Part shown: in pieces, positions 20,418 to 36,801 of the stretch
Numbering within the stretch: the first letter of the stretch is position 1
Layout: every line of letters starts with the position of its first letter
Source of the DNA: a virus
Reading direction: 5' to 3' (one strand)
Length of the DNA: 44,736 nucleotides
IMG/VR virus record: IMGVR_UViG_3300031537_000002
Location: 1 to 44,736 of that record
Notes under the pieces: model-generated
Told to the model about the DNA's origin: nothing
Seen by the model: only the letters and a program-made list of their open reading frames with translations
The model's database searches: none
Position numbers and translations under genes: made by a program

Positions 20418-20517
20418 CATAAACAAAAAAAATAAAACATATAAAATATTTTTAAAATACATAATAAAACGTATAAAACTGATAACGAAATAAAACAAAT
20501 AAACAATATTTCATACT

Positions 20518-20970
20518 TCACCTGTCTCTCTCCCTAAGCTCTAACAATTTGTCTATCTCTTCTTTGACCTGGTCACTATTAAGTCTTTGTTCTATACCGC
20601 CTGAGTGTTCTATTTCTTGCTTATCAGAATAACCATAGTTTTTCATAACAAATATAACAGGTCCGTTATTAACATCATCATTTATAGCTGCGCTTTCTAT
20701 CTCAGCAAGTATATAATCTCTCGCTCTTTTTATAATGTCGAAATACTCTTGATTCTTTTCGTAGTTATATACCGTTTGCCTATCTACACCTATAGCATAA
20801 GCTAGTCCGGCAATAGTAGGAACTTTCGGGCTTATAACATCAAGTATACCATCTTTTGTTATAATTGTTTTTTTATTTAACTTACATTCATCAAAGTAAT
20901 TATCAATTGCATTTTCTAAATCTTCTCGTGTATTATATTTCATCGGCCTTCCTCCTGGGTGCTTAGCCAT
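20518..20970 (-). CDS. terS: Terminase small subunit
   Basis: 150 aa from the ATG at 20968-20970 (MAKHPGGRPMKY). The N-terminal PGGRP followed by a helix-turn-helix (VPTIAGLAYAIGVDRQTVYNYE) is typical of DNA-recognising small terminases, and the C-terminal helices serve oligomerisation. It is the first large gene after the late promoter and overlaps a 21-codon leader ORF. Confidence 0.85.
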   Translation of the reverse strand: MAKHPGGRPMKYNTREDLENAIDNYFDECKLNKKTIITKDGILDVISPKVPTIAGLAYAIGVDRQTVYNYEKNQEYFDIIKRARDYILAEIESAAINDDVNNGPVIFVMKNYGYSDKQEIEHSGGIEQRLNSDQVKEEIDKLLELRERDR

Positions 20971-21028
20971 AAAAGTGACCATCAAATCCAGTCAAGTCAA
21001 CAATCACAATAAATCTTTTTATAATCAT
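20963..21028 (-). CDS. 21-aa leader peptide ahead of terS
   Basis: Begins at an ATG behind AAAGGA and ends in a TAA lying inside the second and third codons of terS (ATGGCTAAG). It is the first frame of the late transcript. The overlap suggests that translating it delivers ribosomes to the terS start, which itself lacks a clear site. Confidence 0.5.
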   Translation of the reverse strand: MIIKRFIVIVDLTGFDGHFYG

Positions 21029-21050: not shown

Positions 21051-21079
21051 ATTTTAGAATAAGTTTTAATATAAGTCAA
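21051..21079 (-). promoter_or_regulatory. Late-operon sigma-70 promoter
   Basis: TTGACT (21074-21079), 17-base spacer, TAAAAT (21051-21056), reading into the leader peptide and terS. It lies directly after an intrinsic terminator, so the late operon is transcriptionally separated from the accessory region upstream. Confidence 0.75.
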
Positions 21080-21149
21080 GAAAAAAAACCAGGTTTTTAC
21101 ACCTGGTTTAAAATTAAAAGGAGCTTTGAAAGGATAATACTTTTTAGTA
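21079..21149 (-). ncRNA. Candidate ~70-nt small RNA with anti-Shine-Dalgarno seed
   Basis: A short unit with its own promoter (21156-21184) and intrinsic terminator. From the predicted start it has a small hairpin (ATACT-AAAA-AGTAT), then an unpaired stretch with ATCCTTTC and AAAGCTCCTTTTAATT, then a perfect 7-bp GC-rich terminator (AACCAGG/CCTGGTT, about 21082-21109) and eight T. The centre is complementary to the RBS motif TTAAAAGGAGCTTT shared by many genes here: 13 bases at the gene starting at 22089, 12 at 22777, 11 at 22966 and 25955. The layout matches seed-type regulatory RNAs; function is inferred. Confidence 0.6.
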
Positions 21150-21155
21150 TGCTTT

Positions 21156-21184
21156 ATAGTATTATTTTAAAGTTTATATGTCAA
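21156..21184 (-). promoter_or_regulatory. Promoter of the candidate anti-SD RNA
   Basis: TTGACA (21179-21184), 17-base spacer, TACTAT (21156-21161). Start predicted near 21149, about 40 bases before the terminator hairpin. Confidence 0.7.
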
Positions 21185-21366: not shown

Positions 21367-22089
21367 TTATACCTCAACCCTTTTCCCTATTTTGTTTAAC
21401 CATTCTCCATAAGTAACAGGAACTCTACAATTTTTATATAAATCATTATTTACTTTATCCTGTTCTTTTAATAATTCAGAAAATTGAATATTTTCTTTAT
21501 TTGGTATCCAATCACCACAGGTTTCTTTTTTTAAACAATCGGCTGTAAAATATGTAGAATTCATTGCAATATTTATAACATCTTTAAAAGCATTTTCATT
21601 ATATAATCCATATTTTGGCTCTTTTTCTTCTGGTTTCTTTTCAAATCTTAGTAATTGTTCGTATGTTAACCGTCTTGTGTTTTCTTTATTAGGGAAATTC
21701 CATGGGCCACAAATATCATTATATTGTATACAGCGTATCAAATCACCTTCTTTAGCGCGTATTTCTAATGTACCTATTCTAAAATCGTTATTAAAATCCT
21801 TTTCAATTCCATGACTGAAACAAATTTCTTGGGATTTTCTTGATTGTTCTTCACTTTCAATCTCTACATAAAACGGAGCGAGTTCTTTTAAATCTGTGAT
21901 TTTTTTACATAACATATAATTAGCGTGATAATATGGATAATTTGGTAATTTAGACTCATTATTAATTACTATTATATAATCATCTATTTTTTTTATTTCT
22001 AATATACCTTTACTTGCATGCATTACAAAATCACCTACTTGAACATCGTGTTTTTTAATCCATTTTTTTTGTTGTTTTTTATATCCCAT
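21367..22089 (-). CDS. Hypothetical accessory protein, paralogue A
   Basis: 240 aa. The N-terminus MGYKKQQKKWIKKHDVQVGD and upstream AAAAGGAGC are the same as in the gene ending at 22223, and the middle (DLKELAPFYVEIES, FSHGIEKD, RRLTYEQLLRFEK) is also shared, so the two are tandem duplicates. The VQVGDFV segment near the N-terminus suggests a small SH3-like/KOW-type beta domain. No family recognised. The C-terminal ~85 residues are unique to this copy. Confidence 0.65.
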   Translation of the reverse strand: MGYKKQQKKWIKKHDVQVGDFVMHASKGILEIKKIDDYIIVINNESKLPNYPYYHANYMLCKKITDLKELAPFYVEIESEEQSRKSQEICFSHGIEKDFNNDFRIGTLEIRAKEGDLIRCIQYNDICGPWNFPNKENTRRLTYEQLLRFEKKPEEKEPKYGLYNENAFKDVINIAMNSTYFTADCLKKETCGDWIPNKENIQFSELLKEQDKVNNDLYKNCRVPVTYGEWLNKIGKRVEV

Positions 22090-22119
22090 TATTTAGCTCC
22101 TTTTAATAAGTAAAATAAT

Positions 22120-22203
22120 TCATAGTATTGAAATAGCAACAAATATAAAACTTAATACTATTACAACTATCATGCCTAAAAAAAATATTCCAAATTCGTC
22201 CAT
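22120..22203 (-). CDS. 27-aa membrane peptide
   Basis: Frame MDEFGIFFLGMIVVIV... is almost entirely one hydrophobic segment. It lies between the duplicated genes with only a weak ribosome site. Could be a real small membrane protein; no family. Confidence 0.35.
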   Translation of the reverse strand: MDEFGIFFLGMIVVIVLSFIFVAISIL

Positions 22204-22222
22204 TTTTAAAACTCATTTTAAA

Positions 22223-22777
22223 TTATTTATTTTTTTTTAATTTTTCACATCTATTTATAATTTCTAATGCAACCTGATTGATTGTTTGAATATCTCGCTG
22301 TAATTGCCCATATACATTTTTTTCAAATCTTAATATTTGATCGTAGGTTAGCTGCCTTGATTCTTCTCTTTCCTGGAAATTATAATATGGGCCACTAAAC
22401 TGTAAACAATATATCTTACAATTTCTATTTCTTATAAAAAGTGTTCCTGATTGAAATTCATCTTTTTCAATTCCATGACTAAAACATATTTCCTGTGCTA
22501 TCATTGATTGTTTTTCACTTTCAATCTCTACATAAAACGGTGCAATTTCTTTTAAGTCTGTGATTTTTTTAATTTCTTTTCTTGAATAACCAAATCCGTT
22601 TCCAAGTATAATAAGCATATTTGTTTTGTCAAAACTTGTAACATTAAATATTTTACCAATAGAATTTTTCTGGTCTTCTATCAAATCATCTTCTGACTGT
22701 TTAATAACCTTAACAAAATCACCTACTTGAACATCGTGTTTTTTAATCCATTTTTTTTGTTGTTTTTTATATCCCAT
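22223..22777 (-). CDS. Hypothetical accessory protein, paralogue B, with capsid-derived C-terminus
   Basis: 184 aa. Residues ~1-155 are the paralogue of the 21367-22089 protein, with identical first ~20 residues and RBS. Right after the shared LRFEK motif the sequence switches to VYGQLQRDIQTINQVALEII, which matches the interior of the major capsid protein (GQLQRDIQTINQAAFNLTNR). DNA at 22247-22311 aligns without gaps to capsid gene DNA at 14481-14545 and is clearly similar by eye. The original C-terminus has therefore been replaced by a piece of the capsid gene. Function unknown. Confidence 0.7.
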   Translation of the reverse strand: MGYKKQQKKWIKKHDVQVGDFVKVIKQSEDDLIEDQKNSIGKIFNVTSFDKTNMLIILGNGFGYSRKEIKKITDLKEIAPFYVEIESEKQSMIAQEICFSHGIEKDEFQSGTLFIRNRNCKIYCLQFSGPYYNFQEREESRQLTYDQILRFEKNVYGQLQRDIQTINQVALEIINRCEKLKKNK

Positions 22778-22822
22778 TATTTAGCTCCTTTTAAATATAC
22801 TTAATTTTTAAATTATTTATAA

Positions 22823-22966
22823 TCATCTATTACTTATCATTATGTTATTAGCCCATAAAATAACAAATAGTATAATCAATAATTTCCAATCATACCACTT
22901 TATTATTAACGCTATTCCTATAATATTTAATATTGTTTCAAAAATTATGGTTATTATTTTTCTCAT
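22823..22966 (-). CDS. 47-aa two-helix membrane protein
   Basis: Start set at the ATG at 22964-22966 because AAAGGAGC precedes it. Reads MRKIITIIFETILNIIG... with two hydrophobic stretches and a short WYDW link, ending in a polar tail. No family recognised. It is the first gene after the RNA cluster. Confidence 0.55.
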   Translation of the reverse strand: MRKIITIIFETILNIIGIALIIKWYDWKLLIILFVILWANNIMISNR

Positions 22967-22996
22967 TTTTAAAGCTCCTTTAAAATAATAAAATAA

Positions 22997-23064
22997 ATAG
23001 TTGCTATAAGACATCTTTAACTATCTGCAAGTGATGCCCTCACAGTTTCTAGTATAGCAACTAT
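22997..23064 (-). ncRNA. Structured RNA element 1 of the GTTGCTAT family (68 nt)
   Basis: The ends form a perfect 12-bp helix (ATAGTTGCTATA / TATAGCAACTAT). Inside are a hairpin built on GTGA-GGGCA-TCAC and a T-arm-like hairpin AGATA-8-base loop-TGTCT, giving a three-way junction like a tRNA without D arm. It directly follows the duplicated 58-base element. Function unknown. Confidence 0.6.
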
Positions 23065-23070
23065 AAATAA

Positions 23071-23128
23071 AGGCATAGATACAACTGACAGCCTAACTGA
23101 ATTCTTGCATCCTAAAGTTAATACGCCT
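23071..23128 (-). repeat. Duplicated 58-base structured element, copy 1
   Basis: Near-identical to 23734-23791 with only two visible base changes over 58 bases. Ends pair (AGGCGTA/TATGCCT with one G-U), and TTAACT can pair with AGTTAG inside. It lies in the RNA cluster between elements 2 and 1. Conservation in a non-coding tract suggests a functional RNA. Confidence 0.5.
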
Positions 23129-23148
23129 TTTTAAAAATATTATAAAAA

Positions 23149-23262
23149 ATAGTTGCTATGGTAAGCCTAATGTTCCCTTCACACGGCGAAGCCGTACTTA
23201 TCCTGTGTCCAAGATTTTCCCTCACCACTTCATGTCATTGACATTTGTCAAATAGCAACTAT
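23149..23262 (-). ncRNA. Structured RNA element 2 of the GTTGCTAT family (114 nt)
   Basis: Closed by an 11-bp helix (ATAGTTGCTAT/ATAGCAACTAT) and containing a stable ACGGC-TTC-GCCGT hairpin and a GG(A)TAAG/CTTACC pairing next to the closing helix. The 3' arm is followed by six T, so its end may act as a terminator. It is six bases downstream of element 3, in tandem. Confidence 0.55.
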
Positions 23263-23268
23263 TATATT

Positions 23269-23389
23269 TAGTTGCTATGGTAAGGCTTGATACTTACACG
23301 ATACTTACTCTGATGCCAGAACCCTACCTCATCGATCATTAGAGTGTTCTCTGGTTTGGCGTCTACCTATTCCTGCCACATAGCAACTA
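23269..23389 (-). ncRNA. Structured RNA element 3 of the GTTGCTAT family, tRNA-Leu-like (121 nt)
   Basis: Closed by TAGTTGCTATG/CATAGCAACTA (11 bp). The 5' part, TGGCAGGAATAGGTAGACGC, closely resembles a bacterial tRNA-Leu D arm. The 3' part, GTAAG-TATCAAGC-CTTAC, resembles a T arm with one extra loop base. The middle is longer than any tRNA, and the closing helix exceeds 7 bp, so it is not a normal tRNA. Confidence 0.6.
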
Positions 23390-23436
23390 TTTTAAAAAAT
23401 CAGCAACTCAAACAATATTCTTAATTTGCTATATTG

Positions 23437-23622
23437 TTATTCTTTGTCGCTTGTATAATTTAACTTTTCTTTTAGAATTTTAATTTCAGATTTAATTCTT
23501 TTTTTATCATGATCTGTTAACTGGACTGTTCCGGATTTTGTAGACTTTTTGTTTAACACTAACTGGCTTTCAAGCCTGTTTAATGCGTTCGTTCTTCTTC
23601 TCTGTAATTTAATATTATTCAT
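23437..23622 (-). CDS. Small basic protein (61 aa)
   Basis: Lys/Arg-rich helical protein (KLQRRRTNALNRLES at the start). TTTGGAG precedes the ATG, and the leader carries the GUAA hairpin (23646-23663) just after a TATAAT box near 23675. No family recognised; nucleic-acid binding is plausible from charge. Confidence 0.55.
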   Translation of the reverse strand: MNNIKLQRRRTNALNRLESQLVLNKKSTKSGTVQLTDHDKKRIKSEIKILKEKLNYTSDKE

Positions 23623-23641
23623 AATTACTCCAAAGTTTTAT

Positions 23642-23667
23642 TTATTATTCTTTTACAAGAATACCTT
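23642..23667 (-). repeat. Direct repeat with GUAA-loop hairpin, copy 2
   Basis: Same ~30-base sequence as 21253-21278, here at the predicted 5' end of the mRNA for the 61-aa protein. Probably an mRNA-leader hairpin. Confidence 0.55.
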
Positions 23668-23733
23668 TACTATTATATTTTATTTTTAACTTTTTTAATT
23701 GTTTTTTATTTAATTTTACTTTATATAAATAAA

Positions 23734-23791
23734 AGGCATAGATACAACTGACATCCTAACTGAATTCTTGCATTCTAAAGTTAATACGCCT
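23734..23791 (-). repeat. Duplicated 58-base structured element, copy 2
   Basis: Second copy of the element at 23071-23128. It is transcribed from the strong promoter at 23818-23845, about 20 bases after the predicted start, so it is near the 5' end of that RNA. Confidence 0.5.
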
Positions 23792-23817
23792 TTTTAAAAA
23801 TATTAACAACTATATAA

Positions 23818-23845
23818 ATTATAATAAATAAATTTATTTTGTCAA
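23818..23845 (-). promoter_or_regulatory. Strong sigma-70 promoter
   Basis: TTGACA (23840-23845), 16-base spacer, TATAAT (23818-23823), then TTATATAGTTGTTA. The -10 region and start closely match the promoter before the plus-strand RNA at 37731, including ATTTATTTATTATAATTTAT. It overlaps the end of the HNH-like gene. Confidence 0.75.
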
Positions 23846-23852
23846 TAGTTTT

Positions 23853-24701
23853 TTATAAAAATTTCCATTCATATCCCTTATATCGTTTTATATAACCATT
23901 ACAAGCTTTATTAATATTACTCTGACGAAATTCTTTTAATGTTCTACTGGCTTCAGCTCCAGATTTCCATATTTTTATTATTTTACCATCTTTTATTTGC
24001 GCTATATTTTTAGATTTTTTTTCAACATTATATTTTTTTGCAAGGTCATTCCTGAAAATTAGTTTTAAATTTTCAAGTTTATATGGCTTTGTAGTATCTT
24101 TTCTTGAAACACAAATATTATAAGCAGATTTTTTATTATTTTCTAAAAAAATATTATAATAACTTTTAAAATCATTACTTTCAATCCATTTTTTAAATTC
24201 ATCAAAATTAAAATTTAAATTAATTCCAAATTTTTTTAAATTTATATTTTTCATATCTATATATCTACGTCTAATAAGATTATTATATTTTAAAGATATT
24301 TTTTTATTTGCATTTTTTCTGCATGAACTACACTGATATGTAGTATTTAATTTCTGTCTACATTTAGATTTATAAAATTTTAAATAAAATTTAATTTTTT
24401 TACACACAGGACATTTTTTAAAAAAATGAATATTATAATTTATTTGTTTTTTATTTATTTGTTTCCGATAAAAATTTATAAAATATTTAACTTTTTCTAA
24501 TTCTTTATTAGCCCAAAAAGTATTTAATTTTTTATAATTAACTAATATTTGTTTTTCTTTTATGATATATAATGTTTTTTTGTTTAATATTTTTATATAA
24601 AAACTACAATCACTACACTGAAATAAATATTCTTTTGGATTATTAAATAAAAATCTTTTTAATTGTTTTTCACATATAGGGCATTTCATAAAACGCTCCA
24701 T
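23853..24701 (-). CDS. HNH/NUMOD-type homing-endonuclease-like protein
   Basis: 282 aa, very Lys/Asn-rich. Two Cys-pair zinc ribbons (CPICEK/CSDC near residues 8-32 and CPVCKK/CSSC near 96-125) precede a degenerate phage HNH pattern (CVSRKDTTKPYKLENLKLI). The C-terminal IKIWKSGAEASRTL and later YEWKFL match NUMOD1-type DNA-binding modules. No intron was seen, so it looks free-standing. The catalytic His is not clear, so nuclease activity is uncertain. Confidence 0.6.
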   Translation of the reverse strand: MERFMKCPICEKQLKRFLFNNPKEYLFQCSDCSFYIKILNKKTLYIIKEKQILVNYKKLNTFWANKELEKVKYFINFYRKQINKKQINYNIHFFKKCPVCKKIKFYLKFYKSKCRQKLNTTYQCSSCRKNANKKISLKYNNLIRRRYIDMKNINLKKFGINLNFNFDEFKKWIESNDFKSYYNIFLENNKKSAYNICVSRKDTTKPYKLENLKLIFRNDLAKKYNVEKKSKNIAQIKDGKIIKIWKSGAEASRTLKEFRQSNINKACNGYIKRYKGYEWKFL

Positions 24702-24748
24702 TTTTTAAAATATTTTAACAAAACGTAAATTTTACCAAATTGATAATT

Positions 24749-25462
24749 TTAAAATTTAATATCATTTTGTTCGTCTGACGCAGATTCTCTAAGCTGGTCA
24801 AGATAGTTGTTTTCAGGTGCTGGTTGAGATATGATTATTTTTTCCTCTTCTGGTATTTCTTTTACCTTAGCTGCATCAACTACCCAGCGTAATATAGTTA
24901 GATAATCTGACTTTGTTTTATATCCTTTTTCTTTTTTGTAATCAGATAGATATTGTATAAGGCGGTTTGTCTGAATGTCACCATATTTGTCTAATAATTT
25001 TTTGTATTCTTTTTCAGTCATTTTCACATTATCCGCATATGCTTTTTTTTGCTTTTTATCTATACTAACCTTATCTATACTAACCTTATCTGAGTCAACA
25101 TTTTGTATACATGTTTGTATACGGTCTGTATACGATCCATTTTCTTTAATAAAAAGACTATTTTTTTCTTTAGTGTAAACAGTTTCTTTGTATCTATCTA
25201 TTGCTATATAGTTATGTATCTTCCAATGTTTTATAACTATTATTCCATTATCAAAACCAAGAATAAACCTTTTTGAAAATAATATTTTCATATCATCAAT
25301 TGAACAATTAACTATTTTTATTATTTTTTTTGGATTACTTATAAACCCATCGTCATCAGCTCGCATGCATAAATGAAAATATAAATTTTGTGTTGATGTA
25401 GGCATTTCTAAAAATGCATCAGTATCAACTATTTGTAAACTAAACATTCTTTTTTGAGCCAT
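24749..25462 (-). CDS. Replisome organiser / DnaD-like replication protein
   Basis: 237 aa. The N-terminal MAQKRMFSLQIVDTDAFLEM followed by TQNLYFHLCMRADDDGF is the typical start of the phage replisome-organiser winged-helix domain. The Lys-rich centre holds a tandem VSIDK repeat, and the C-terminal region (KYGDIQTNRLIQYLSDYK) is DnaD-like. It would bind the origin and load the DnaB helicase encoded at 34574. It is on the opposite strand to the other replication genes. Confidence 0.75.
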   Translation of the reverse strand: MAQKRMFSLQIVDTDAFLEMPTSTQNLYFHLCMRADDDGFISNPKKIIKIVNCSIDDMKILFSKRFILGFDNGIIVIKHWKIHNYIAIDRYKETVYTKEKNSLFIKENGSYTDRIQTCIQNVDSDKVSIDKVSIDKKQKKAYADNVKMTEKEYKKLLDKYGDIQTNRLIQYLSDYKKEKGYKTKSDYLTILRWVVDAAKVKEIPEEEKIIISQPAPENNYLDQLRESASDEQNDIKF

Positions 25463-25955
25463 TTTGTTTCCTTTTTTGTCTTAATTCTTTTAATTTTTGT
25501 TTTTTTATTTCTTTTATTTCTTCAATTTCTTTTAATATCTCTTTATTTCTTATTTCTATAGGTGATTTATCAATTCTTTCTTCCATATCAAACATTTTAT
25601 TTGTCACATTTATTGCTCTGGCAAAACTAATAAGTCTTGAGTTGTTATTATATACTTTTCTTAATCTGTTTATTTTTTTTGTTTCTTCATATACATGGAA
25701 TCTTGATTCTCTGGCTCTTTTTTGTTTTTGTTTTTTCATTTCAGCTTGTTTTTTTTCATTTTCATGTAATTTATCAAGATGTTCTTCATAAGCTATTTTT
25801 CCAGCGTAATAATCATTTTCAACGTCTTCTAAATCATCATCAGGTCCCCATCTTGTGCATGGTGGCTCAATTGGATTTCCTCCATAACATTTCATACCTG
25901 TACATTCTCCATCTAAAAAACAATCTTCACATCCGTTCATTTCATGTACTTTCAT
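25440..25955 (-). CDS. Cys-rich, charged hypothetical protein
   Basis: 171 aa from the ATG at 25955 behind AAAAGGAGC. The N-terminus has a compact Cys cluster (CEDCFLDGECTGMKC, then CTRW), probably one zinc or metal site; the rest is a long Lys/Glu-rich helix. It overlaps the replisome-organiser start by 23 bases, so the two are coupled. No family recognised. Confidence 0.6.
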   Translation of the reverse strand: MKVHEMNGCEDCFLDGECTGMKCYGGNPIEPPCTRWGPDDDLEDVENDYYAGKIAYEEHLDKLHENEKKQAEMKKQKQKRARESRFHVYEETKKINRLRKVYNNNSRLISFARAINVTNKMFDMEERIDKSPIEIRNKEILKEIEEIKEIKKQKLKELRQKRKQNGSKKNV

Positions 25956-26205
25956 ATAAGCTCCTTTTGATATCATAATTTTCTAAGAAAATATCAATTT
26001 TTTCAGGTGATTCTAATCCATAATCTTTTATCTCTTTATAATAATCAACTTTTAATTCTGTTTCTTTTTGATGATATTTGATCATTTCTGATATAGTTTT
26101 AAATGATGAAAACGATAAACATAATTTTACATCGTTTACAGTTTCAACTCGATATCCGCCAAAACCATTTTCATTCCACCAGTCAATTAAATTTTTTTCG
26201 TACAT
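25942..26205 (-). CDS. Hypothetical protein (87 aa)
   Basis: Begins MYEKNLIDWWNENGFGGYRV behind GAAAGGA and overlaps the next start by 14 bases. First gene after the terminator at 26224-26281. No family recognised; mixed alpha/beta and acidic. Confidence 0.55.
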   Translation of the reverse strand: MYEKNLIDWWNENGFGGYRVETVNDVKLCLSFSSFKTISEMIKYHQKETELKVDYYKEIKDYGLESPEKIDIFLENYDIKRSLYEST

Positions 26206-26223
26206 AATAAAATCCTTTCAAAA

Positions 26224-26281
26224 TAAAAAAGCCCTTACTGACGGGCACTCGCTAGAGTGACGCACCCCGTCAGCAAAGGCT
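26224..26281 (-). terminator. Strong intrinsic terminator
   Basis: AGCCTTTG-CTGACGGG pairs with CCCGTCAG-TAAGGGCT with an inner CACTC/GAGTG stem, then TTTTTTATTT. It ends the small RNA that starts near 26394. Confidence 0.85.
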
Positions 26282-26394
26282 CTCAATAGTATTTGTTTAA
26301 GTGCGTATCAAACAAAAATAATTGCTATGATATAACATTTGTTATAATTCTTAAGCTAAACCCTTGCGCATTGGTGCTGACACATAGCAATTAT
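26282..26394 (-). ncRNA. Free-standing small RNA with GTTGCTAT-family element (variant ATTGCTAT)
   Basis: The element (26318-26394, 77 nt) is closed by a perfect 12-bp helix ATAATTGCTATG/CATAGCAATTAT. Compared with its relatives, G-C is replaced by A-T on both arms, a compensating change. The predicted start from the promoter at 26399-26427 falls at the helix edge. A second hairpin (TTTGTTT/AAACAAA) and the terminator follow, giving an RNA of about 170 nt that contains no ORF. Confidence 0.65.
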
Positions 26395-26398
26395 AAAA

Positions 26399-26427
26399 AG
26401 TATAATAAAAAAATAATTATTTGTCAA
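26399..26427 (-). promoter_or_regulatory. Promoter of the small RNA
   Basis: TTGACA (26422-26427), 17-base spacer, TATACT (26399-26404). Lies directly behind the KilA-N gene. Confidence 0.78.
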
Positions 26428-26428
26428 A

Positions 26429-27061
26429 TTATTTATGTTCAGCTTCCCCCATTATTTCATTTTTTGCTTTTTTAATAGCAACTTCAATTAAATTATTTTT
26501 CTCTCTTATTATATCAGATAACAAAGAAATGTATTCATGTATTTTGTCTCTTAATTTTAATTGATTTTCATTTGCTGTTTGCCAGTCTGTTACATTGCAT
26601 TCTAATTTTATTTTGTTTGCAATATCAATTATATCTTTTTGAAAATTTGATTTGTTTGATAATGAAATATATAAAGCTCCTGTCATTTTTTTATAACTGT
26701 CTCCTGAATGATTTCTATATTTAATTAGATTATCATATATCCATTCATAAACAGTTAATTTTAAATTTGGATTTATTGAAAGCGCCATATCGATAAATAA
26801 ATATGGGTGTACCCATGTGTGCTTACCTCTTCCTTTGCCTGATTTAATAACCTCTCCATATTCATCTGATAATGATTTTACAAATTCTTTTGTTCCTTTT
26901 TGCCTTAACCACTCAGACATATTAAATTGATTTAATCCGTTAATAACTCTCCATTTATTTCCAGCTCTAACAAGGTCTGTCGCTGAAAAAAAAGAATTAT
27001 CAGATTGTTGGGATATCTCACAATCAAATAATTCACGCTTCATTATTACTCTAGTAATCAT
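26429..27061 (-). CDS. KilA-N domain protein
   Basis: 210 aa. FFSATDLVRAGNKWR and GKGRGKHTWVHPYLFIDMA are the KilA-N DNA-binding signature, with a downstream VYEWIYDNL...HSGDSYKKM typical of phage KilA-N proteins, then a helical tail. KilA-N proteins are usually regulators or host-takeover factors. AAGGA precedes the ATG; a possible promoter (TTGTAA-17-TATAAC) lies in the 100-base gap upstream. Confidence 0.85.
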   Translation of the reverse strand: MITRVIMKRELFDCEISQQSDNSFFSATDLVRAGNKWRVINGLNQFNMSEWLRQKGTKEFVKSLSDEYGEVIKSGKGRGKHTWVHPYLFIDMALSINPNLKLTVYEWIYDNLIKYRNHSGDSYKKMTGALYISLSNKSNFQKDIIDIANKIKLECNVTDWQTANENQLKLRDKIHEYISLLSDIIREKNNLIEVAIKKAKNEIMGEAEHK

Positions 27062-27163
27062 AATTAATCCTTAGTGTATTTTTTTTATTATTATAATACA
27101 TGTTATATAAAATATAAATAATATTTACAAAAAAACTACATGTTTTATTTATTATAAACATAA

Positions 27164-27388
27164 TTATTTGTCAATAATTTTTGGGGTTTTATAACAGTAA
27201 ACTTTCATTATTTTTTCTATTGCCCCGGAAATAATATCTCTTGTCATATTATGTTTTGAAGCATTATAACATGGTGTTCCAAACAAATAGATAATATGTC
27301 CTTTTTTTGTGAATTCTAAAAATGGATATTTTTTCAAATATTCTTTTTCTACAAACCCTATATGCTCATAATTATTTATATTACTCAT
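27164..27388 (-). CDS. Hypothetical protein (74 aa)
   Basis: Begins MSNINNYEHIGFVEKEYLKK; contains FLEFTKKGHIIYLFGTPCY and a basic C-terminus. Part of a chain of five small genes after the hammerhead. No family recognised. Confidence 0.5.
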   Translation of the reverse strand: MSNINNYEHIGFVEKEYLKKYPFLEFTKKGHIIYLFGTPCYNASKHNMTRDIISGAIEKIMKVYCYKTPKIIDK

Positions 27389-27399
27389 AACAATTCCTT

Positions 27400-27600
27400 T
27401 TATTTGTGTTCATGTTCCCAGATTTCAGTGAATTTTTTAGCGTTTTTAGCAATCCATTCTAAAAAATAATCTTCATTTGAAAGTTTGTATCCGGGAAGTT
27501 TTGAGTCTTTTTCCAGGTCTATGATCATTTGTCTAGCCTGGTCCTTCATAAGTTCATGAAATCTTTTTTTTCTTTCTTCTACACTCATATTAAGCCTCAC
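27400..27600 (-). CDS. Hypothetical protein (66 aa)
   Basis: Helical, charged (MSVEERKKRFHELMKDQARQ). An internal ATG four codons in is an alternative start. No family recognised. Confidence 0.5.
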   Translation of the reverse strand: MRLNMSVEERKKRFHELMKDQARQMIIDLEKDSKLPGYKLSNEDYFLEWIAKNAKKFTEIWEHEHK

Positions 27601-27615
27601 AAGCTTTTTAAAAAA

Positions 27616-27846
27616 TTAAGATTTTTTTTTAAAATATAATAAAAAATTAAGATATCTTTTTGATAATAACTTTATATAATTTCCTTCAAATAATATCTCT
27701 TTGTCTTTTTTATTTTCATATTTATCAAGCATTTTATTTGTTATAATTATTTCTAAATAAAAAGGAATACACATTTTAATGGTGTTATTGTCATTTTTTT
27801 TATTAAAAACAATTTGTTTTATGTCATTAATATTAGTAATTTGCAT
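27616..27846 (-). CDS. Hypothetical protein (76 aa)
   Basis: Begins MQITNINDIKQIVFNKK. A GTG three codons earlier directly abuts the previous stop, so the start is uncertain. Lys/Asn-rich, no family. Confidence 0.45.
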   Translation of the reverse strand: MQITNINDIKQIVFNKKNDNNTIKMCIPFYLEIIITNKMLDKYENKKDKEILFEGNYIKLLSKRYLNFLLYFKKKS

Positions 27847-27855
27847 ATTAACCAC

Positions 27856-28053
27856 TTATTTCAGTAAAAATCTTTTTGCGCCATTAACTATCATAACACA
27901 ATTAGATGATGACATGTAAACATCTTCGTGTTTTTCAACAAGAGATTTAACAATATCAGCGCCTTTATTTGAAATAACTAAGACATCATTGTTATTTCTT
28001 TCAATTGTTGCATAAGCATCAATATCTTTAATAATCTTTTTAATATTTGACAT
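27856..28053 (-). CDS. Hypothetical protein (65 aa)
   Basis: Begins MSNIKKIIKDIDAYATIERN behind AAGGAGC. This is the first gene on the 3' product of the hammerhead ribozyme, whose cleavage site lies 27 bases upstream of the ATG. No family recognised. Confidence 0.55.
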   Translation of the reverse strand: MSNIKKIIKDIDAYATIERNNNDVLVISNKGADIVKSLVEKHEDVYMSSSNCVMIVNGAKRFLLK

Positions 28054-28075
28054 ATAAGCTCCTTATTGTAATTAT

Positions 28076-28126
28076 AACCGACGCCCGAAGGCGTTTCGTC
28101 GTAATTTTCAAAGACTCATCAGGGTT
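28076..28126 (-). ncRNA. Hammerhead ribozyme (type I)
   Basis: All core parts are present in order on the minus strand: stem I AACC, core CTGATGA, stem II GTC...GAC with a 12-base loop, core GAAA, stem III CGCC-TTCG-GGCG, triplet GTC, then GGTT closing stem I. Cleavage is expected between 28080 and 28079. It begins two bases after the stop of the 22-aa ORF and lies before the gene at 27856-28053, so it would cut that transcript between the two cistrons. Confidence 0.93.
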
Positions 28127-28128
28127 GT

Positions 28129-28197
28129 TTATTTTCGTTTAATAATTTCATGAGCAAACTCTAACGCTTCTTTATAGTTATTAAAATATCTAGTCAT
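28129..28197 (-). CDS. 22-aa ORF between twister and hammerhead
   Basis: MTRYFNNYKEALEFAHEIIK... preceded by TTGGGAG. It lies wholly between two self-cleaving ribozymes, so a ~185-nt RNA carrying just this ORF would be released. No family recognised; an amphipathic helix is likely. Confidence 0.5.
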   Translation of the reverse strand: MTRYFNNYKEALEFAHEIIKRK

Positions 28198-28216
28198 ATT
28201 TTTACTCCCAAGTTAA

Positions 28217-28270
28217 ATTACGCTCTGCATTATACGAGGGCTTGCGACACTCCGTTGGCTGCATTACTCA
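28217..28270 (-). ncRNA. Twister ribozyme, copy 1
   Basis: Minus-strand core: TAATGCAGCC, then a P4 loop with GTCGCAAGCCC, then ATAATGCAGAG and GCG. TGCA/TGCA forms P2. The loop CGC pairs with the 3' GCG (pseudoknot T1), where the other two copies have CAC with GTG, a compensating change. Cleavage expected between 28266 and 28265 (T^AA). P1 is weak or absent, as tolerated in known twisters. It follows the stop of the 137-aa gene and a GC hairpin. Confidence 0.88.
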
Positions 28271-28310
28271 CCCAGGTAGCCTAGGACTCGAAAGTCATAG
28301 GCAACCTGGG
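28271..28310 (-). other. GC hairpin protecting the 3' end upstream of twister copy 1
   Basis: CCCAGGT pairs with ACCTGGG, then GCCTA/TAGGC and GACT-TTCG-AGTC, with two mismatches. It begins seven bases after the stop codon and ends five bases before the cleavage site, so it becomes the 3' end of the released mRNA. Confidence 0.8.
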
Positions 28311-28317
28311 AGGGTTA

Positions 28318-28731
28318 TTATTCTTCTGTATCTTCTCTATAATAAGGTGATAATGATCCAGACATGTTTGATTGGGTTACTTTTATTTTTTCACCATTTT
28401 CTAATGCTATTTCATAATTGAAATAATATGCTGGTGAAGGATGTGATAATGAAATTACTTCACCTTCTACTATTTCAAGTTCACATCTGTCATAAAAATC
28501 ATGTTGAAAATTATTACCATCACAATATGAAACAATAATATAATCTCCAAGATATTCATCATATTCGGATTCCAGCAAATCGCCATTTTCGTCAAGGTAT
28601 TCACTCAATGATGATCCGTAAATATCGTCCAATGACCAATCAGCATCAATTGCATCTTCAACGGTCGCTTGTCTTGTATCGTCAGTTGATACATATGTAG
28701 TATAATGTCCTTCAATCTTATAAAATTTCAT
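28318..28731 (-). CDS. Cassette 1 protein (137 aa, acidic)
   Basis: Acidic, Tyr-rich protein (MKFYKIEGHYTTYVSTDDT...). ATG behind TTGGGAG. It is the coding part of the first promoter-hairpin-ORF-hairpin-twister cassette. No family recognised; it looks like a small soluble anti-host or regulatory protein, but that is a guess. Confidence 0.65.
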   Translation of the reverse strand: MKFYKIEGHYTTYVSTDDTRQATVEDAIDADWSLDDIYGSSLSEYLDENGDLLESEYDEYLGDYIIVSYCDGNNFQHDFYDRCELEIVEGEVISLSHPSPAYYFNYEIALENGEKIKVTQSNMSGSLSPYYREDTEE

Positions 28732-28754
28732 ATTATATCTCCCAAGTTTTTGTT

Positions 28755-28808
28755 AAGGCATTAAATACCTTACATTAATAATTATAGTGCATTTTCAAAA
28801 AAAAACAA
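28755..28808 (-). promoter_or_regulatory. Cassette 1 promoter and 5' hairpin
   Basis: TTGTTT (28803-28808), 16-base spacer, TATAAT (28781-28786), then an AAGGTA-TTTAA-TGCCTT hairpin (28755-28771) at the predicted mRNA start. Nearly identical to the plus-strand copies at 38671 and 40448; one hairpin pair changes A-T to G-T, keeping the pairing. Confidence 0.8.
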
Positions 28809-28829
28809 TATTAAAATAAAAAAAAAGTA

Positions 28830-28869: not shown

Positions 28870-28880
28870 AATATTTTATT

Positions 28881-28946
28881 AGACGGTATTGGAAATTGCT
28901 ACAAGTAATACTTGTGTGTAGCCAGGTTCAAGTCCTGGAACAGTCT
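28881..28946 (+). ncRNA. tRNA-like element without D arm
   Basis: The T arm is canonical (CCAGG-TTCAAGT-CCTGG). An anticodon-arm-like helix TACAA/TTGTG encloses a 7-base loop GTAATAC with T in position 33 (nominal anticodon AAT), and a 5-base variable loop follows. AGACGGT pairs with ACAGTCT with one mismatch. Only ~12 bases replace the D arm. It starts ~16 bases after the predicted transcript start and leads into the first early gene. More likely a tRNA-derived leader than a working tRNA. Confidence 0.5.
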
Positions 28947-28963
28947 TTTTGAAGGATAATATT

Positions 28964-29386
28964 ATGAAAAAACAAAGAAAAGCACATTTGGTTGAGGTTA
29001 AAAATAATAATTATAAAAAATGGGAAAAAAGAATTGCTGTTGATTTAGAATGTAATCCAGTTTTATGTGTAGACATTTATTATGAAGAAAAATATTTAAA
29101 TTTTGAATATTATGATGTAGAGCGGTGGGAACAATGGCGCGAAATAAAAGAACCAGAATACATTACTTATGAAACAATGAAAACATTAGATATTTTTGAA
29201 TATAATAAAAAAGATAAAACAAAAGTAAATTTTGATGAAATTATGTATTCAAATGGTACATGGGATGATTGTAATTTAGACTTTGATATAAATCTTGTTG
29301 TTAAATTAAATTATAAAAGTATTGATTATAATTATTTTTTATATCAAAATGATTTAGAACATGTTATTTTAAGAAATAAAAAATGA
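28964..29386 (+). CDS. Hypothetical early protein (140 aa)
   Basis: Start set at ATG 28964 behind AAGGA; a TTG five codons earlier is less likely. Acidic, Tyr/Asn-rich, mixed alpha/beta. First gene of the rightward operon. No family recognised. Confidence 0.6.
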   Translation: MKKQRKAHLVEVKNNNYKKWEKRIAVDLECNPVLCVDIYYEEKYLNFEYYDVERWEQWREIKEPEYITYETMKTLDIFEYNKKDKTKVNFDEIMYSNGTWDDCNLDFDINLVVKLNYKSIDYNYFLYQNDLEHVILRNKK

Positions 29387-29526
29387 ACGTGCTAATTATA
29401 ACAGGTGAAATCTGGGAAAACATGATTTTGGATGGAAATGATCAAGATGTAGTTTTCTTTGATTATTTTGACGAAGATAAATATATCAAAACAGGTATGT
29501 TAGATGATGAAGATTTACCTGAATGA
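29383..29526 (+). CDS. Hypothetical protein (47 aa)
   Basis: Overlaps the previous stop (ATGA), so translation is coupled. Very acidic C-terminus (MLDDEDLPE). No family. Confidence 0.5.
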   Translation: MNVLIITGEIWENMILDGNDQDVVFFDYFDEDKYIKTGMLDDEDLPE

Positions 29527-29585
29527 GTATTATAGATGATGGAAGATGATTGTGTTTCAGAAAAATGTAAATGGGAGTTAAAACA

Positions 29586-29759
29586 ATGACAGTAAAATGT
29601 AAATGTGGAAATGATGTTAAAATAACAAAAGAAATTAAAGAACATTATTATAATTGGAAATGTAATGAATGCGGTGGTATTGTAACCTGGAATAACGTAA
29701 TAAGTGTTTGGAAGTGTTCAACACCTACAGTTACCAGAAATAGTCAAAATAGATATTAG
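29586..29759 (+). CDS. Zinc-ribbon protein (57 aa)
   Basis: ATG at 29586 behind GGGAG. CKCG near the start and WKCNECGG in the middle form a CxC...CxxC zinc ribbon. Probably a small nucleic-acid or protein-binding factor. Confidence 0.55.
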   Translation: MTVKCKCGNDVKITKEIKEHYYNWKCNECGGIVTWNNVISVWKCSTPTVTRNSQNRY

Positions 29760-29768
29760 GAGTTTTAA

Positions 29769-29918
29769 ATGATATTAAGTATGCATGATGATAATGGTAA
29801 TTTTGGTGTAAAATGTCCTAACGGAGTTAAGGTATCAAAAGTATTACCAGCAACTGTTTATGTTGGAAGTCAAAACTGTTTGAATTGTTATTATTTTGGC
29901 AGATTTGAATCAAATTGA
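29769..29918 (+). CDS. Hypothetical protein (49 aa)
   Basis: AGGAG precedes the ATG. Contains FGVKCPNG and CLNCYYFGR, a pair of Cys clusters. No family. Confidence 0.5.
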   Translation: MILSMHDDNGNFGVKCPNGVKVSKVLPATVYVGSQNCLNCYYFGRFESN

Positions 29919-29985
29919 ATTTTTTGTAAATATCAAAAAAAAAAATAATAAAAAATGATAAAAAATACAAATATGAAAAAATTTT

Positions 29986-30033
29986 TAGTTATAAAAACAA
30001 AACAAAATATAACAATGATGTTGTTTTTATAAC
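29986..30033 (+). other. Long perfect inverted repeat
   Basis: AGTTATAAAAACAA pairs with TTGTTTTTATAACT (14 bp, no mismatch) around a 20-base loop, followed by GATAATTTTT. It lies in the 144-base gap between two small genes; it could be a weak terminator or a 5' stabiliser of the next mRNA. Confidence 0.5.
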
Positions 30034-30062
30034 TGATAATTTTTAAACAAAGGATAATAATT

Positions 30063-30227
30063 ATGAGAAAAATAATCTATTATTGTGATAGATGTGGAAA
30101 AGAAACTAAAAATGATGATAAAGAAAGAGTTTGGATTATATACCCCGCAAACACAAACGGTTGTTTGTGTAAAAAATGTTATAATGATTTTTTAAAATTT
30201 ATGAAAAATAATAGGAATATATTGTGA
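30063..30227 (+). CDS. Zinc-ribbon protein (54 aa)
   Basis: CDRCGK and CLCKKCY form a four-Cys zinc ribbon. AAAGGA precedes the ATG. Frequent type of small phage early protein; role unknown. Confidence 0.6.
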   Translation: MRKIIYYCDRCGKETKNDDKERVWIIYPANTNGCLCKKCYNDFLKFMKNNRNIL

Positions 30228-30403
30228 TCAAAAAACTTTTTTTTGAATTAAAATGTATTTCTGGCAGATTAAACAGCAGTGGTAAAGTGTATAATGGAGA
30301 TACTCAGAAATCACATTATATATATTATAATCCGCGAACTAAAGAATTAGAAGAAAAAGTAAGAAGAAATATTTTGGTTCGAAGAGGAAAAACATTTTTT
30401 TGA
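30224..30403 (+). CDS. Hypothetical basic protein (59 aa)
   Basis: GTG start overlapping the previous stop (GTGA), with AGGA upstream. Basic C-terminus (KVRRNILVRRGKTF). No family. Confidence 0.5.
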   Translation: MIKKLFFELKCISGRLNSSGKVYNGDTQKSHYIYYNPRTKELEEKVRRNILVRRGKTFF

Positions 30404-30439
30404 ATATAATTTATTAATATTATAAAATGGAGGTAAAAA

Positions 30440-30859
30440 TTGATTTGTAAAATTTTTCTTGAAAAAAGCGCTTTAATGCCTAAAAAAAACAATAAATCTG
30501 ATAATTGTTATGATGTATTTTCAAATAACGATTATCATGTTAACAACCTTTCTACGTGTGTTGTAGGTACAGGAATACATATTGAACCTGAAAAAGGCTG
30601 GGGCATGTTGATAAGGCCAAGATCAGGAAAATCATTAAAAGGGATAATACTCGGAGGTGGTGAAGTTGATAATGGATATAGAGGGGAAATTGGGGTAATA
30701 ATCCATAATATGACTGGTAGTTCTATCAATATCAACAAAGGTGAAAAGATCGCACAAATTAGACCTGTCCGGATCGAAGATATAGATTTTATTCAGGTCC
30801 AGGAATTATCAAAATCAGATAGAGGATCGAAAGGGTTTGGCGCAAGCGGTGATTACTAA
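30440..30859 (+). CDS. dut: dUTPase
   Basis: 139 aa with the trimeric dUTPase motifs in order: SDNCYDVFS (I), RPRSG (II), GEVDNGYRGEIGV (III, catalytic Asp-Tyr), GEKIAQI (IV) and DRGSKGFGASG (V, Gly-rich P-loop-like). TTG start behind GGAGG. Converts dUTP to dUMP, keeping uracil out of phage DNA. Confidence 0.93.
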   Translation: MICKIFLEKSALMPKKNNKSDNCYDVFSNNDYHVNNLSTCVVGTGIHIEPEKGWGMLIRPRSGKSLKGIILGGGEVDNGYRGEIGVIIHNMTGSSININKGEKIAQIRPVRIEDIDFIQVQELSKSDRGSKGFGASGDY

Positions 30860-30915
30860 TATTATATTTTATATGATTTTTTGGATTTTCTTAATTCTAT
30901 TGAAAAGGAATAAAT

Positions 30916-31149
30916 ATGATAATATATGAATCAGAAAAATTTTGGATGGAAATGTATAATTATGATATATACATTATAATAAACATTCATATAAAAGAAA
31001 CAGGAGAAATAAAACAGTTTTCTAATTATATTGAATATAAATATAAAAACAAAGATTACCCTGGAAAATATAAAAAATTAAATGATTTGTATGCCATGCA
31101 AAGGGCAATTAAAAAAGCAATAGAATTAGAAAAGAATGGAGTATTTTAA
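30916..31149 (+). CDS. Hypothetical protein (77 aa)
   Basis: AAAGGA before the ATG. Begins MIIYESEKFWMEMYNYDIY, Tyr/Ile-rich beta-type N-terminus and a helical end. No family. Confidence 0.5.
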   Translation: MIIYESEKFWMEMYNYDIYIIINIHIKETGEIKQFSNYIEYKYKNKDYPGKYKKLNDLYAMQRAIKKAIELEKNGVF

Positions 31150-31171
31150 ATAATTAAACAAAGGAGCTTAT

Positions 31172-31393
31172 ATGAAAAATATACAAACATGTTCAAATTG
31201 TATACATTCATACAAAAACAGACAGGTTACATGCTTTACTTGTATTCCTGTAAAAAAAGACAATATGAGTAATTTTAAATTGCTTAAAGAAAAAAGGAAA
31301 AATGTACATTTAAATTCATGGGTTGAAAAATCAGATTATTTCAATTTTTTGGATAAGATATTGTTTTTTCTTACAGGGAGGTATTTTAAATGA
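31172..31393 (+). CDS. Cys-cluster hypothetical protein (73 aa)
   Basis: Behind AAAGGAGC, complementary to the candidate anti-SD RNA. CSNCIHSY...TCFTCIP is a four-Cys cluster. Overlaps the next start. Confidence 0.55.
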   Translation: MKNIQTCSNCIHSYKNRQVTCFTCIPVKKDNMSNFKLLKEKRKNVHLNSWVEKSDYFNFLDKILFFLTGRYFK

Positions 31394-31605
31394 TGAATTT
31401 ATTATTAGTTTATTTAATCGGTTGTGTTTCTATTTTTATTATTTTAATATTAAATTTATTAATAAGAAAAATAATAAAAAAATATTTTTTCCCAATGGTT
31501 ATAACTTTTTTAATTTTGTCATTTATTCCGATTATAAACATACTTGTATTAGTTGGATGTTTGATTTCTAGCTGGCAAAAATTGTACAGGGATTCAAAAA
31601 AATGA
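31390..31605 (+). CDS. Small membrane protein (71 aa)
   Basis: Two hydrophobic segments (LLLVYLIGCVSIFIILILNL and PIINILVLVGCLI) with a basic link. Overlaps both neighbours. No family. Confidence 0.55.
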   Translation: MMNLLLVYLIGCVSIFIILILNLLIRKIIKKYFFPMVITFLILSFIPIINILVLVGCLISSWQKLYRDSKK

Positions 31606-32330
31606 GTAGATACGTGATAAATGAAATTAAATATCCTTCTCCAACTATAATACTTGGCGAGCTTGCAAAGGGTGAAAATTTCTATACCTGGATTGGAAGA
31701 GAGGCCTTAAAAACTGGGAAAGAAGATGGATATAAAATCAGCAGAGATAAATCAGCTTCTATAGGGTCTGAGCTTCATAACTTAATTGAGTGTTTTGTTA
31801 AAATAAAGATAGAAGAAAGGCCCGAAAACATAAAACATTTTCTGAAAGATTATGATAGTCAGATAAAATCAATGTTCATGAAATTTTTCAATTGGCAAAA
31901 AGAAAATGTTAAGAAGTTTCTTGAAAGTGAAAAACCTGTAGTTCATGAAAAAGACTGCTGCGCTGGAACTTTTGATTTTTCTTATATTGATTATTCAGAT
32001 AGAAAAATTATAGTTGACCTAAAAACATCTGGGGATATATACGATACTTATATAATGCAAGTTAACTTCTATAAGCATGCAAGGGAATCAATGTCAGGGA
32101 AATACAAAGTTGAGTTCAACCAGGATAATGCGCACTGGACAAAAAGCTTTGAATATGATATAATCAAATATGATGATTGTGCAATTTTAAGAATTTCCCG
32201 TGAATCAGAGCTTGAATATAGAATTGTCACAGATCAAAATAAGTTACAAGCTTTTTTATTAGTGTTATCTTATTATTACACGGTTAAAAAAAGACGATTA
32301 AATAATAATCGTGCAAAAAATAGAAAATAA
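31602..32330 (+). CDS. PD-(D/E)XK nuclease (Cas4/RecB-type exonuclease-like)
   Basis: 242 aa. IGSELHNLIE is the N-terminal His helix. GTFDFSYID and KIIVDLKTS give the Asp, Asp and Lys of the PD-(D/E)XK core, with a QVNFYKHA helix after it, as in phage RecB/Cas4-like exonucleases. With the annealase and SSB downstream it likely forms the recombination set. Confidence 0.82.
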   Translation: MSRYVINEIKYPSPTIILGELAKGENFYTWIGREALKTGKEDGYKISRDKSASIGSELHNLIECFVKIKIEERPENIKHFLKDYDSQIKSMFMKFFNWQKENVKKFLESEKPVVHEKDCCAGTFDFSYIDYSDRKIIVDLKTSGDIYDTYIMQVNFYKHARESMSGKYKVEFNQDNAHWTKSFEYDIIKYDDCAILRISRESELEYRIVTDQNKLQAFLLVLSYYYTVKKRRLNNNRAKNRK

Positions 32331-32341
32331 AGGATTAAATA

Positions 32342-32524
32342 ATGGAAATAAACTATGAATGGTATAAAGGATGGTGTATAACTTCTTGTCCAAATAAAGA
32401 AGAGGAGCATTTAAAAGTAGGAAATATATATTGTCATAAGTGTTTTTATTTTGTAGATGATGATAAAGAAAAAAAGAAAGTTACATGTTTTTATAAAAAA
32501 AGAGAGGTAAAAAATAAATCTTAA
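32342..32524 (+). CDS. Cys/His-cluster hypothetical protein (60 aa)
   Basis: CITSCPN, CHKC and TCFYKK give a zinc-site pattern. AAAGGA precedes the ATG. No family. Confidence 0.5.
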   Translation: MEINYEWYKGWCITSCPNKEEEHLKVGNIYCHKCFYFVDDDKEKKKVTCFYKKREVKNKS

Positions 32525-32574
32525 AAAATATAAAATTACTTATAATATATTAAAACAATAAAAGGAGTAAAATA

Positions 32575-32817
32575 ATGTTTAGAATTATAGACAAAACAGA
32601 AGATAAAGATATTATAAAAATGTCTAATATGCCTAAAAATGCGGTAGCAAAAGTTATAGATAATGATGATTATAATGGACATTATGTATTTAAGATATAT
32701 AATAAATTTTATTTTGATTTAACTGATGGTTCTTATTGGAGTGATGGAAGCGAAACTTTAGTCAAACTTCTTCCTCAAGGTGAAAAAGTAACTGTAGAAT
32801 TTTTTAATGAGGAGTAA
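32575..32817 (+). CDS. Hypothetical acidic protein (80 aa)
   Basis: AAAGGAG before ATG. Beta-type, with SYWSDGSETLVKLL near the end. No family. Confidence 0.5.
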   Translation: MFRIIDKTEDKDIIKMSNMPKNAVAKVIDNDDYNGHYVFKIYNKFYFDLTDGSYWSDGSETLVKLLPQGEKVTVEFFNEE

Positions 32818-32821
32818 AAAA

Positions 32822-33184
32822 TTGGAAACAATAGATATTAAAGGTAAATCTTATATCACTGTAAATGAAAGAATAAAGCATTTTAGATCAAAGTTTCCTA
32901 ATTGGTCTATTATTACATCTATAGAACAAATTCATAAAGAAGGCGTAATTTTTAAAGCGTGTATTTTTGATGAAAACAATAAAATAAGAGCAACTGGACA
33001 CGCAATGGAAAAAAGCGGCGATAGTTTTATTAATAAAACAAGCCATATAGAAAATTGTGAAACTTCTGCTATTGGCAGGGCATTAGGGTCAATGGGAATA
33101 GGAATTGATTCTAGTTTTGCTAGTGCTGACGAGATTTTAAATTCAATTAAAAATCAAAAAATAAACGGAGGAAATAATGTCTAA
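32822..33184 (+). CDS. ERF/Rad52-like ssDNA annealing protein
   Basis: 120 aa from a TTG at 32822 behind GAGGAG. The C-terminal HIENCETSAIGRALGSMGIG matches the conserved (A/C)ETSAxGRALG block of phage ERF-type annealases, with a following ASADEI. Shorter than most ERF proteins. Sits between exonuclease and SSB. Confidence 0.65.
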   Translation: METIDIKGKSYITVNERIKHFRSKFPNWSIITSIEQIHKEGVIFKACIFDENNKIRATGHAMEKSGDSFINKTSHIENCETSAIGRALGSMGIGIDSSFASADEILNSIKNQKINGGNNV

Positions 33185-33665
33185 TGATTTAAATAATGTT
33201 GTACTTATTGGAAGGTTAACAAAAGACGCTGAAATTAAGTACACTTCAACCGGGAAGCCTGTAACAAAATTCTCTATAGCAAATAATTCAATTTCTAATA
33301 AAACAGAATACGTTAATTATTTTGATGTAAATGTATGGGGAGTTCAGGCTGTTAATTGTGAAAAATATTTAAAAAAAGGTAGCAAAATTGTTGTTACTGG
33401 TAGTTTGAGACAAAACAGATGGCAGGATCAGTCTACTGGACAAGTGAAATCAAAAGTTGAAATTAACGCTTTTAATGTTCAGTTTTTAGGATCGAAACAA
33501 AACGGACAGCAACAAAACACACAATATCCACAAAACACGCAACAACCAGGAAATTACCAACAACCACAAAATAGTATTCCTCAGCAGAATACTAGTAATA
33601 TTAACAATCAGTTTTCCGGACAACAAATGGATAACAAGCCGTTAAGCGATGATATCCCGTTTTAG
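33177..33665 (+). CDS. ssb: Single-strand DNA-binding protein
   Basis: 162 aa. The OB-fold start NVVLIGRLTKDAEIKYTSTG, central WGVQAVNCEKYLKKG and KIVVTGSLRQNRW are typical; a Gln/Asn-rich linker leads to the acidic tip DDIPF that binds partner proteins. Confidence 0.95.
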   Translation: MSNDLNNVVLIGRLTKDAEIKYTSTGKPVTKFSIANNSISNKTEYVNYFDVNVWGVQAVNCEKYLKKGSKIVVTGSLRQNRWQDQSTGQVKSKVEINAFNVQFLGSKQNGQQQNTQYPQNTQQPGNYQQPQNSIPQQNTSNINNQFSGQQMDNKPLSDDIPF

Positions 33666-33673
33666 GATTATAT

Positions 33674-34171: not shown

Positions 34172-34577
34172 ATTTAGAATTTGGTTTCCAAATATTAAAA
34201 TATTTATGCCTTATGATGAAAAAGTATTTAATTTGATGGATGTAACTAATGGTAAGTTGGTTTATAATTGTGATGACTGGCTGGAATCAAATGATGATTT
34301 AGAGTATTATGATGATGAAGGATATGAATTAAATCAATACTCAGGATTAAAGGATAAAAATGGTAAAGAAATTTATGAAGGTGATTATAGTATTGATGAA
34401 AATACTTTATATTTAATAACGTTTAAAAATGGTTCGTTTGGTTATAATGTTTATGATAGAAATGATGATGGTTCATGGTCTTTAATTGAATTTGAAACAA
34501 TGGAAAGTTATTATTATGACAAAATGGACTTTTCAAAAAATATTTATGAGAATCCAGAATTGTTGGAATCAGAATGA
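34155..34577 (+). CDS. YopX-family protein
   Basis: 140 aa from ATG 34155. MRREIKFRIWFPN, then YSGLKDKNGKEIYEGDYS is the YopX signature. Role unknown in the family; common in Firmicutes phages. Confidence 0.82.
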   Translation: MRREIKFRIWFPNIKIFMPYDEKVFNLMDVTNGKLVYNCDDWLESNDDLEYYDDEGYELNQYSGLKDKNGKEIYEGDYSIDENTLYLITFKNGSFGYNVYDRNDDGSWSLIEFETMESYYYDKMDFSKNIYENPELLESE

Positions 34578-36790: not shown

Positions 36791-36801
36791 GGTGGCAAAT
36801 A

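Follow-up and report, generated by a model that had tools for sequence, protein, structure and literature searches.

Does the short stretch of DNA in front of the late genes of this phage encode a regulatory RNA directed against ribosome binding sites (RBSs)? The initial annotation had placed a promoter and a terminator around about 70 bases, without giving a strand, and had proposed an anti-Shine-Dalgarno (anti-SD) RNA which blocks early-gene RBSs while late genes start. Here, the structure of this cassette, its conservation, and the pairing of its predicted transcript with the RBSs of the phage genes were analyzed. The term window refers to the whole stretch of 44,736 nucleotides.

Structure and genomic setting of the cassette

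Cassettes were searched as sigma-70-like promoters with at least 10/12 consensus matches and a strong terminator within 110 nt. This combination is present once in the window and once in the sister phage described below, and 30 dinucleotide-shuffled versions of the window contained none. The annotated promoter and terminator were thereby recovered, and all parts of the cassette could be assigned to the minus strand:

21156-21184, minus strand: small-RNA promoter TTGACA-17 nt-TACTAT, 10/12 consensus match (-35 TTGACA at 21184-21179, -10 TACTAT at 21161-21156)
21081-21150, minus strand: predicted small RNA of ~70 nt, based on its fold, its conservation in the sister and its being the sole such cassette
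21137-21150, minus strand: 5′ hairpin AUACU-AAAA-AGUAU of the small RNA, from folding
21127-21138, minus strand: first anti-RBS box (UAUUAUCCUUUC), with complementarity to RBSs of the GAAAGGAUAAUA type
21113-21126, minus strand: second anti-RBS box (AAAGCUCCUUUUAA), with complementarity to RBSs of the UUAAAAGGAGCUUU type
21081-21109, minus strand: intrinsic terminator with a 9-bp stem and a U run, from terminator search and folding

From its predicted start at ~21150 the small RNA reads AUACUAAAAAGUAUUAUCCUUUCAAAGCUCCUUUUAAUUUUAAACCAGGUGUAAAAACCUGGUUUUUUUU; it contains no ATG, and its U run, which follows the terminator stem-loop AAACCAGGU-GUAAAA-ACCUGGUUU, ends at 21081. Folding of 21150-21078 yielded a minimum free energy (MFE) of −14.3 (z −3.5) and a structure in which 27 unpaired nt separate the 5′ hairpin from the terminator hairpin. 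The unpaired centre described initially is thus the pyrimidine-rich linker between the two hairpins, which is open in the predicted fold. A gene on the opposite strand of the locus was also considered and rejected, as a conserved reading frame is absent in comparison with the sister.

On the minus strand, the cassette is followed by the second promoter-like site, a leader ORF and terS/terL, in agreement with the annotated position just before a late promoter:

21051-21079, minus strand: second promoter-like site and candidate late promoter, TTGACT-17-TAAAAT, from promoter search and identical in the sister
20972-21028, minus strand: 18-aa leader ORF with RBS AAAGGAU, overlapping the terS start, read from the sequence and nearly identical in the sister
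20518-20970, minus strand: terS, terminase small subunit, opening the late block (PHROG 606, E 4.8e-29)

The TTGACT of the second promoter-like site begins one base past the U run of the small RNA. The start of terL is most likely at 20420; about 100 extra bases (20421-20517, minus strand), which are missing in the sister, separate it from terS. To the right of the cassette, accessory and early genes are located, transcribed leftward from 21367-28731 and rightward from 28949-43189. The RBS of the leader ORF is a weak possible target of the small RNA (−8.3 kcal/mol), and in the predicted minimum-energy fold of the read-through RNA the first box is not paired with this RBS.

Conservation in a sister phage

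Relatives were sought in viral contigs by TerS, TerL, portal, a TerL profile and three DNA patterns, in genome contigs by TerL and DnaB, and by blastn against phages and plasmids. The sole relative carrying the element was the IMG/VR contig 3300031276_000004 (44,180 bases, ~93% identical, aligned blocks mostly 80-97% identical), here called the sister; outside this contig the element was not found in the viral contigs, genome contigs, phages and plasmids searched. Also, inspection by eye of TerL relatives with 42-48% identity (L040-L043, L049) revealed no comparable upstream element.

In the sister, the small-RNA promoter reads TTGACA-17-TATTAT, with an unchanged -35 region and one change from TACTAT in the -10 region, while 4/17 bases of the spacer are changed. 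Only 1/70 transcribed bases differs (spacer vs transcript, Fisher p 0.005), namely an A-U pair of the terminator which became G-U with pairing kept, and the linker is wholly unchanged. The 40 bases past the small RNA, including the second promoter-like site, are identical. Homology between window and sister restarts immediately upstream of the small-RNA promoter, the adjoining accessory region being different, so that the element moves together with the late module. At most one change in 70 bases has a probability of 0.04 at 7% divergence and of 0.22 at 4%, and conservation is weak evidence here because just two close relatives were compared.

These data bear on the main rival to a trans-acting RNA, a terminated late-operon leader comparable to lambda PR′-tR′, in which a constitutive promoter is read through with the help of a phage factor and the short RNA is a by-product. 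The cassette lies directly before terS/terL on the same strand and is conserved in one block with the late module, as expected for such a leader. However, read-through is not needed, since the second promoter-like site past the terminator is equally conserved, and an antiterminator gene of known type was not recognised among the proteins scanned. We regard this explanation as rather unlikely.

The locus might also be a boundary terminator only, stopping leftward accessory transcription, with promoter and linker being chance or remains of inverted RBSs. The upstream accessory genes are on the same strand, and promoter-like sites are many in this AT-rich genome; however, the -35 region was unchanged and the match of the -10 region kept despite the changes in the spacer, and the opposite strand has no conserved reading frame. 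We consider this explanation improbable.

Pairing with ribosome binding sites

Duplex energies were calculated between the linker and the RBS region of each gene, and values of −13 kcal/mol or better were considered strong. With gene starts taken from a simple script and a few of them corrected manually, which leaves room for errors at individual genes, strong duplexes were obtained in the window for 12-13 early/accessory genes and 0 late genes (Fisher p 0.003 for the strong tail). The sister has 15 such early/accessory genes and 0 late ones (Fisher p 0.00025), and 5/15 lack a homologue in the window. Mean energies of early vs late genes in the window showed a weak shift that is not significant (p 0.06-0.10). 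A match to many early and accessory RBSs, as noted initially, is present in both phages.

The boxes of the linker match two early RBS classes, UUAAAAGGAGCU and GAAAGGAUAAUA. The GAAAGGAUAAUA class is matched by the first box and the (UUA)AAAAGGAGCU class by the second box. One of the two boxes, UUAUCCUUUC, was absent from the initial annotation; it is located within 15 contiguous bases complementary to the RBS of an early gene of the sister (gene at 29046). Predicted targets in the window include the following:

22085-22110, minus strand: RBS of gene 21367-22089, UUAUUAAAAGGAGCUAAAUAAUG; duplex −17.8, cofold gain −17.3 kcal/mol
22773-22798, minus strand: RBS of gene 22223-22777; duplex −17.0, cofold gain −19.6
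25951-25975, minus strand: RBS of gene 25440-25955; duplex −15.7, cofold gain −17.8
31152-31174, plus strand: RBS of gene 31172-31393; duplex −14.6, cofold gain −14.1
39030-39052, plus strand: RBS of gene 39050-39295; duplex −19.8 (sister −19.2), cofold gain −13.4
28944-28966, plus strand: RBS of gene 28964-29386, predicted first-box target; duplex −12.3

The complementarity of up to 13 bases reported before occurs at gene 21367-22089, and the sister homologue of gene 28964-29386 reaches a duplex energy of −18.8 with 15 contiguous pairs. Several core replication genes pair poorly (DnaB −5.0, SSB −7.6, exonuclease −6.4, NinB −6.9, and DnaD-like −7.4 kcal/mol), and the predicted target set is thus a part of the early region.

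The RBSs of late genes are mostly of the AGGUG, AGGGG or GAGGU type. They are not weaker for the ribosome, as mean 16S pairing is −7.4 for late vs −7.0 for early genes. A C directly after GGAG is present in 8/22 early and 0/4 late cases; this base makes no contribution to pairing with the standard 16S anti-SD.

Specificity of the pairing

Random linkers keeping CUCCUUU and random linkers with the 16S core ACCUCCUUU matched neither the observed mean early energy nor the strong-target count (0/400 each). Pairing energies no better than those of random anti-SD sequences had been named initially as a reason to abandon the proposal; the linker performed better than 400/400 random linkers. When both boxes were kept and the remainder was shuffled, the observed mean was equalled in 182/400 cases, which locates the specificity in the two boxes. 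Among random 28-mers of the genome, 2/700 attained the observed mean and 0/700 the strong-target count. This fit beyond random controls is left unexplained by a late-operon leader.

Antisense copies of single early RBSs had at most 11 strong targets vs 12 for the linker, so that an inverted RBS could be the origin of the linker. That such copies pair almost as widely is a further point in favor of a mere boundary terminator; the best of them also hit 1-4 late genes, whereas the linker hits 0.

Two other roles appear highly improbable, i.e. that the small RNA acts mainly on host mRNAs, or that its transcription interferes with the adjoining late promoter. Host RBSs are within reach of any anti-SD RNA, and TTGACT begins at 21079, adjoining the terminator. 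On the other hand, the linker fits the early RBSs of the phage better than do random flanks around the same core, which argues against host mRNAs as main targets.

Taken together, the controls, the results for the partly different genes of the sister, and the conservation of linker and terminator support the prediction of an anti-SD RNA favoring early/accessory over late RBSs.

Proposed function

We consider it somewhat probable (roughly 0.55) that the locus encodes a trans-acting RNA of ~70 nt blocking translation initiation of a set of early and accessory genes. The two anti-RBS boxes of the exposed linker match the two RBS types of many of these genes. By covering the Shine-Dalgarno sequence and the flanking bases in a duplex, the linker would block binding of the 30S subunit and thereby lower translation of the set, and late genes would escape due to their mostly different RBS types.

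Transcription of the predicted small RNA, repression and time of action are inferred here from the DNA. From its location heading the late module a link to late expression is suggested, but constant synthesis, with the RNA serving as a brake on early genes, would be equally compatible. The promoter corresponds to an ordinary sigma-70 consensus, looks constitutive, and could fire early or throughout. A translational early-to-late switch, with one RNA shutting down dispersed early/accessory targets via a shared RBS code and late genes being immune owing to their other RBS types, is conceivable and put forward tentatively. If true, gene timing or dosage would be controlled here by a post-transcriptional device, the usual explanation of phage gene timing being transcription, and there would be a reason for different early vs late RBS types within one phage.

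Other elements in the accessory and early regions

Further structured sequences were observed in the accessory and early regions. An array of small elements with long paired ends, bounded by ATAGTTGCTATG ... CATAGCAACTAT, is located at 22995-23400 and 26300-26390 of the window and at 3500-4000 of contig L002; some of these have tRNA-like arms, e.g. GTAAGGTGCAAATCCTTAC in L002. ARAGORN predicted 0 tRNAs in the window and one tRNA-Ile(TAT) in the array of the sister, and Rfam found no tRNA in the arrays. A tRNA-like stretch AGACGGT...CCAGGTTCAAGTCCTGG...ACAGTCTT (28880-28945, plus strand), called by neither ARAGORN nor Rfam, lies directly upstream of the early gene 28964-29386. An element of ~60 bases with paired ends, AAAGGCATAGATACAACTGAC...AATACGCCTTTTTAAAAATATTA, occurs twice in the accessory region (23080-23140 and 23735-23800). 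A sequence of ~100 bases, TAATACCTTAACATCAAAAGCTTGGGAGGCTTAATATG, is present at 28724-28812, 38650-38758 and 40429-40532 upstream of several early genes; it was found on both strands and in both phages and is perhaps a spread module of early promoter and RBS.

Comparison with known regulatory RNAs

Rfam 15 covariance models gave 0 matches at the gathering level in the window; the best match below threshold was rseX (26 bits vs 50), and the C4-like model scored 9.6 bits vs a gathering level of 46.7. In the literature searched, which excluded most subscription papers, neither a phage anti-SD RNA nor an early-to-late switch by a small RNA was found.

The streptococcal csRNAs are CiaRH-dependent RNAs of 51-202 nt with a 5′ stem-loop, an unpaired anti-SD linker and a terminator stem-loop, which are proposed to prevent the initiation of translation on several mRNAs; almost all of them carry the nonamer [A/C]UCCUAAA[A/C] after the first stem-loop (PMC3091779). 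The predicted phage RNA likewise comprises two stem-loops, of which the second is a terminator, and the anti-SD stretch separating them is unpaired. In contrast, it has UAUCCUUUC in place of the nonamer and was therefore not classed as a csRNA. Its linker also has two distinct anti-RBS boxes and no anti-AUG (CAU), and it is phage-encoded from a promoter with no visible link to CiaR.

StxS and lambda 6S are short PR′-to-tR′ transcripts; StxS, an Hfq-binding RNA which undergoes RNase E processing and for which few targets are known, is reported to silence a target by binding to its RBS (PMC7873438). The cassette resembles these loci in that its promoter and terminator directly precede the late operon on the same strand. 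It differs from StxS in the second promoter-like site after the terminator and in being predicted to act on many of the phage's own early genes. Other phage RNAs controlling phage genes are sar (P22), C4 (P1/P7) and OOP (lambda) with 68-77 nt, of which sar hinders translation initiation of ant; the phage RNAs covered by a 2025 review have one or few targets each (PMC12197685). The predicted RNA is similar to sar, C4 and OOP in being phage-encoded and in its length, but these have one main target each, whereas a dispersed set of RBSs is the predicted target here.
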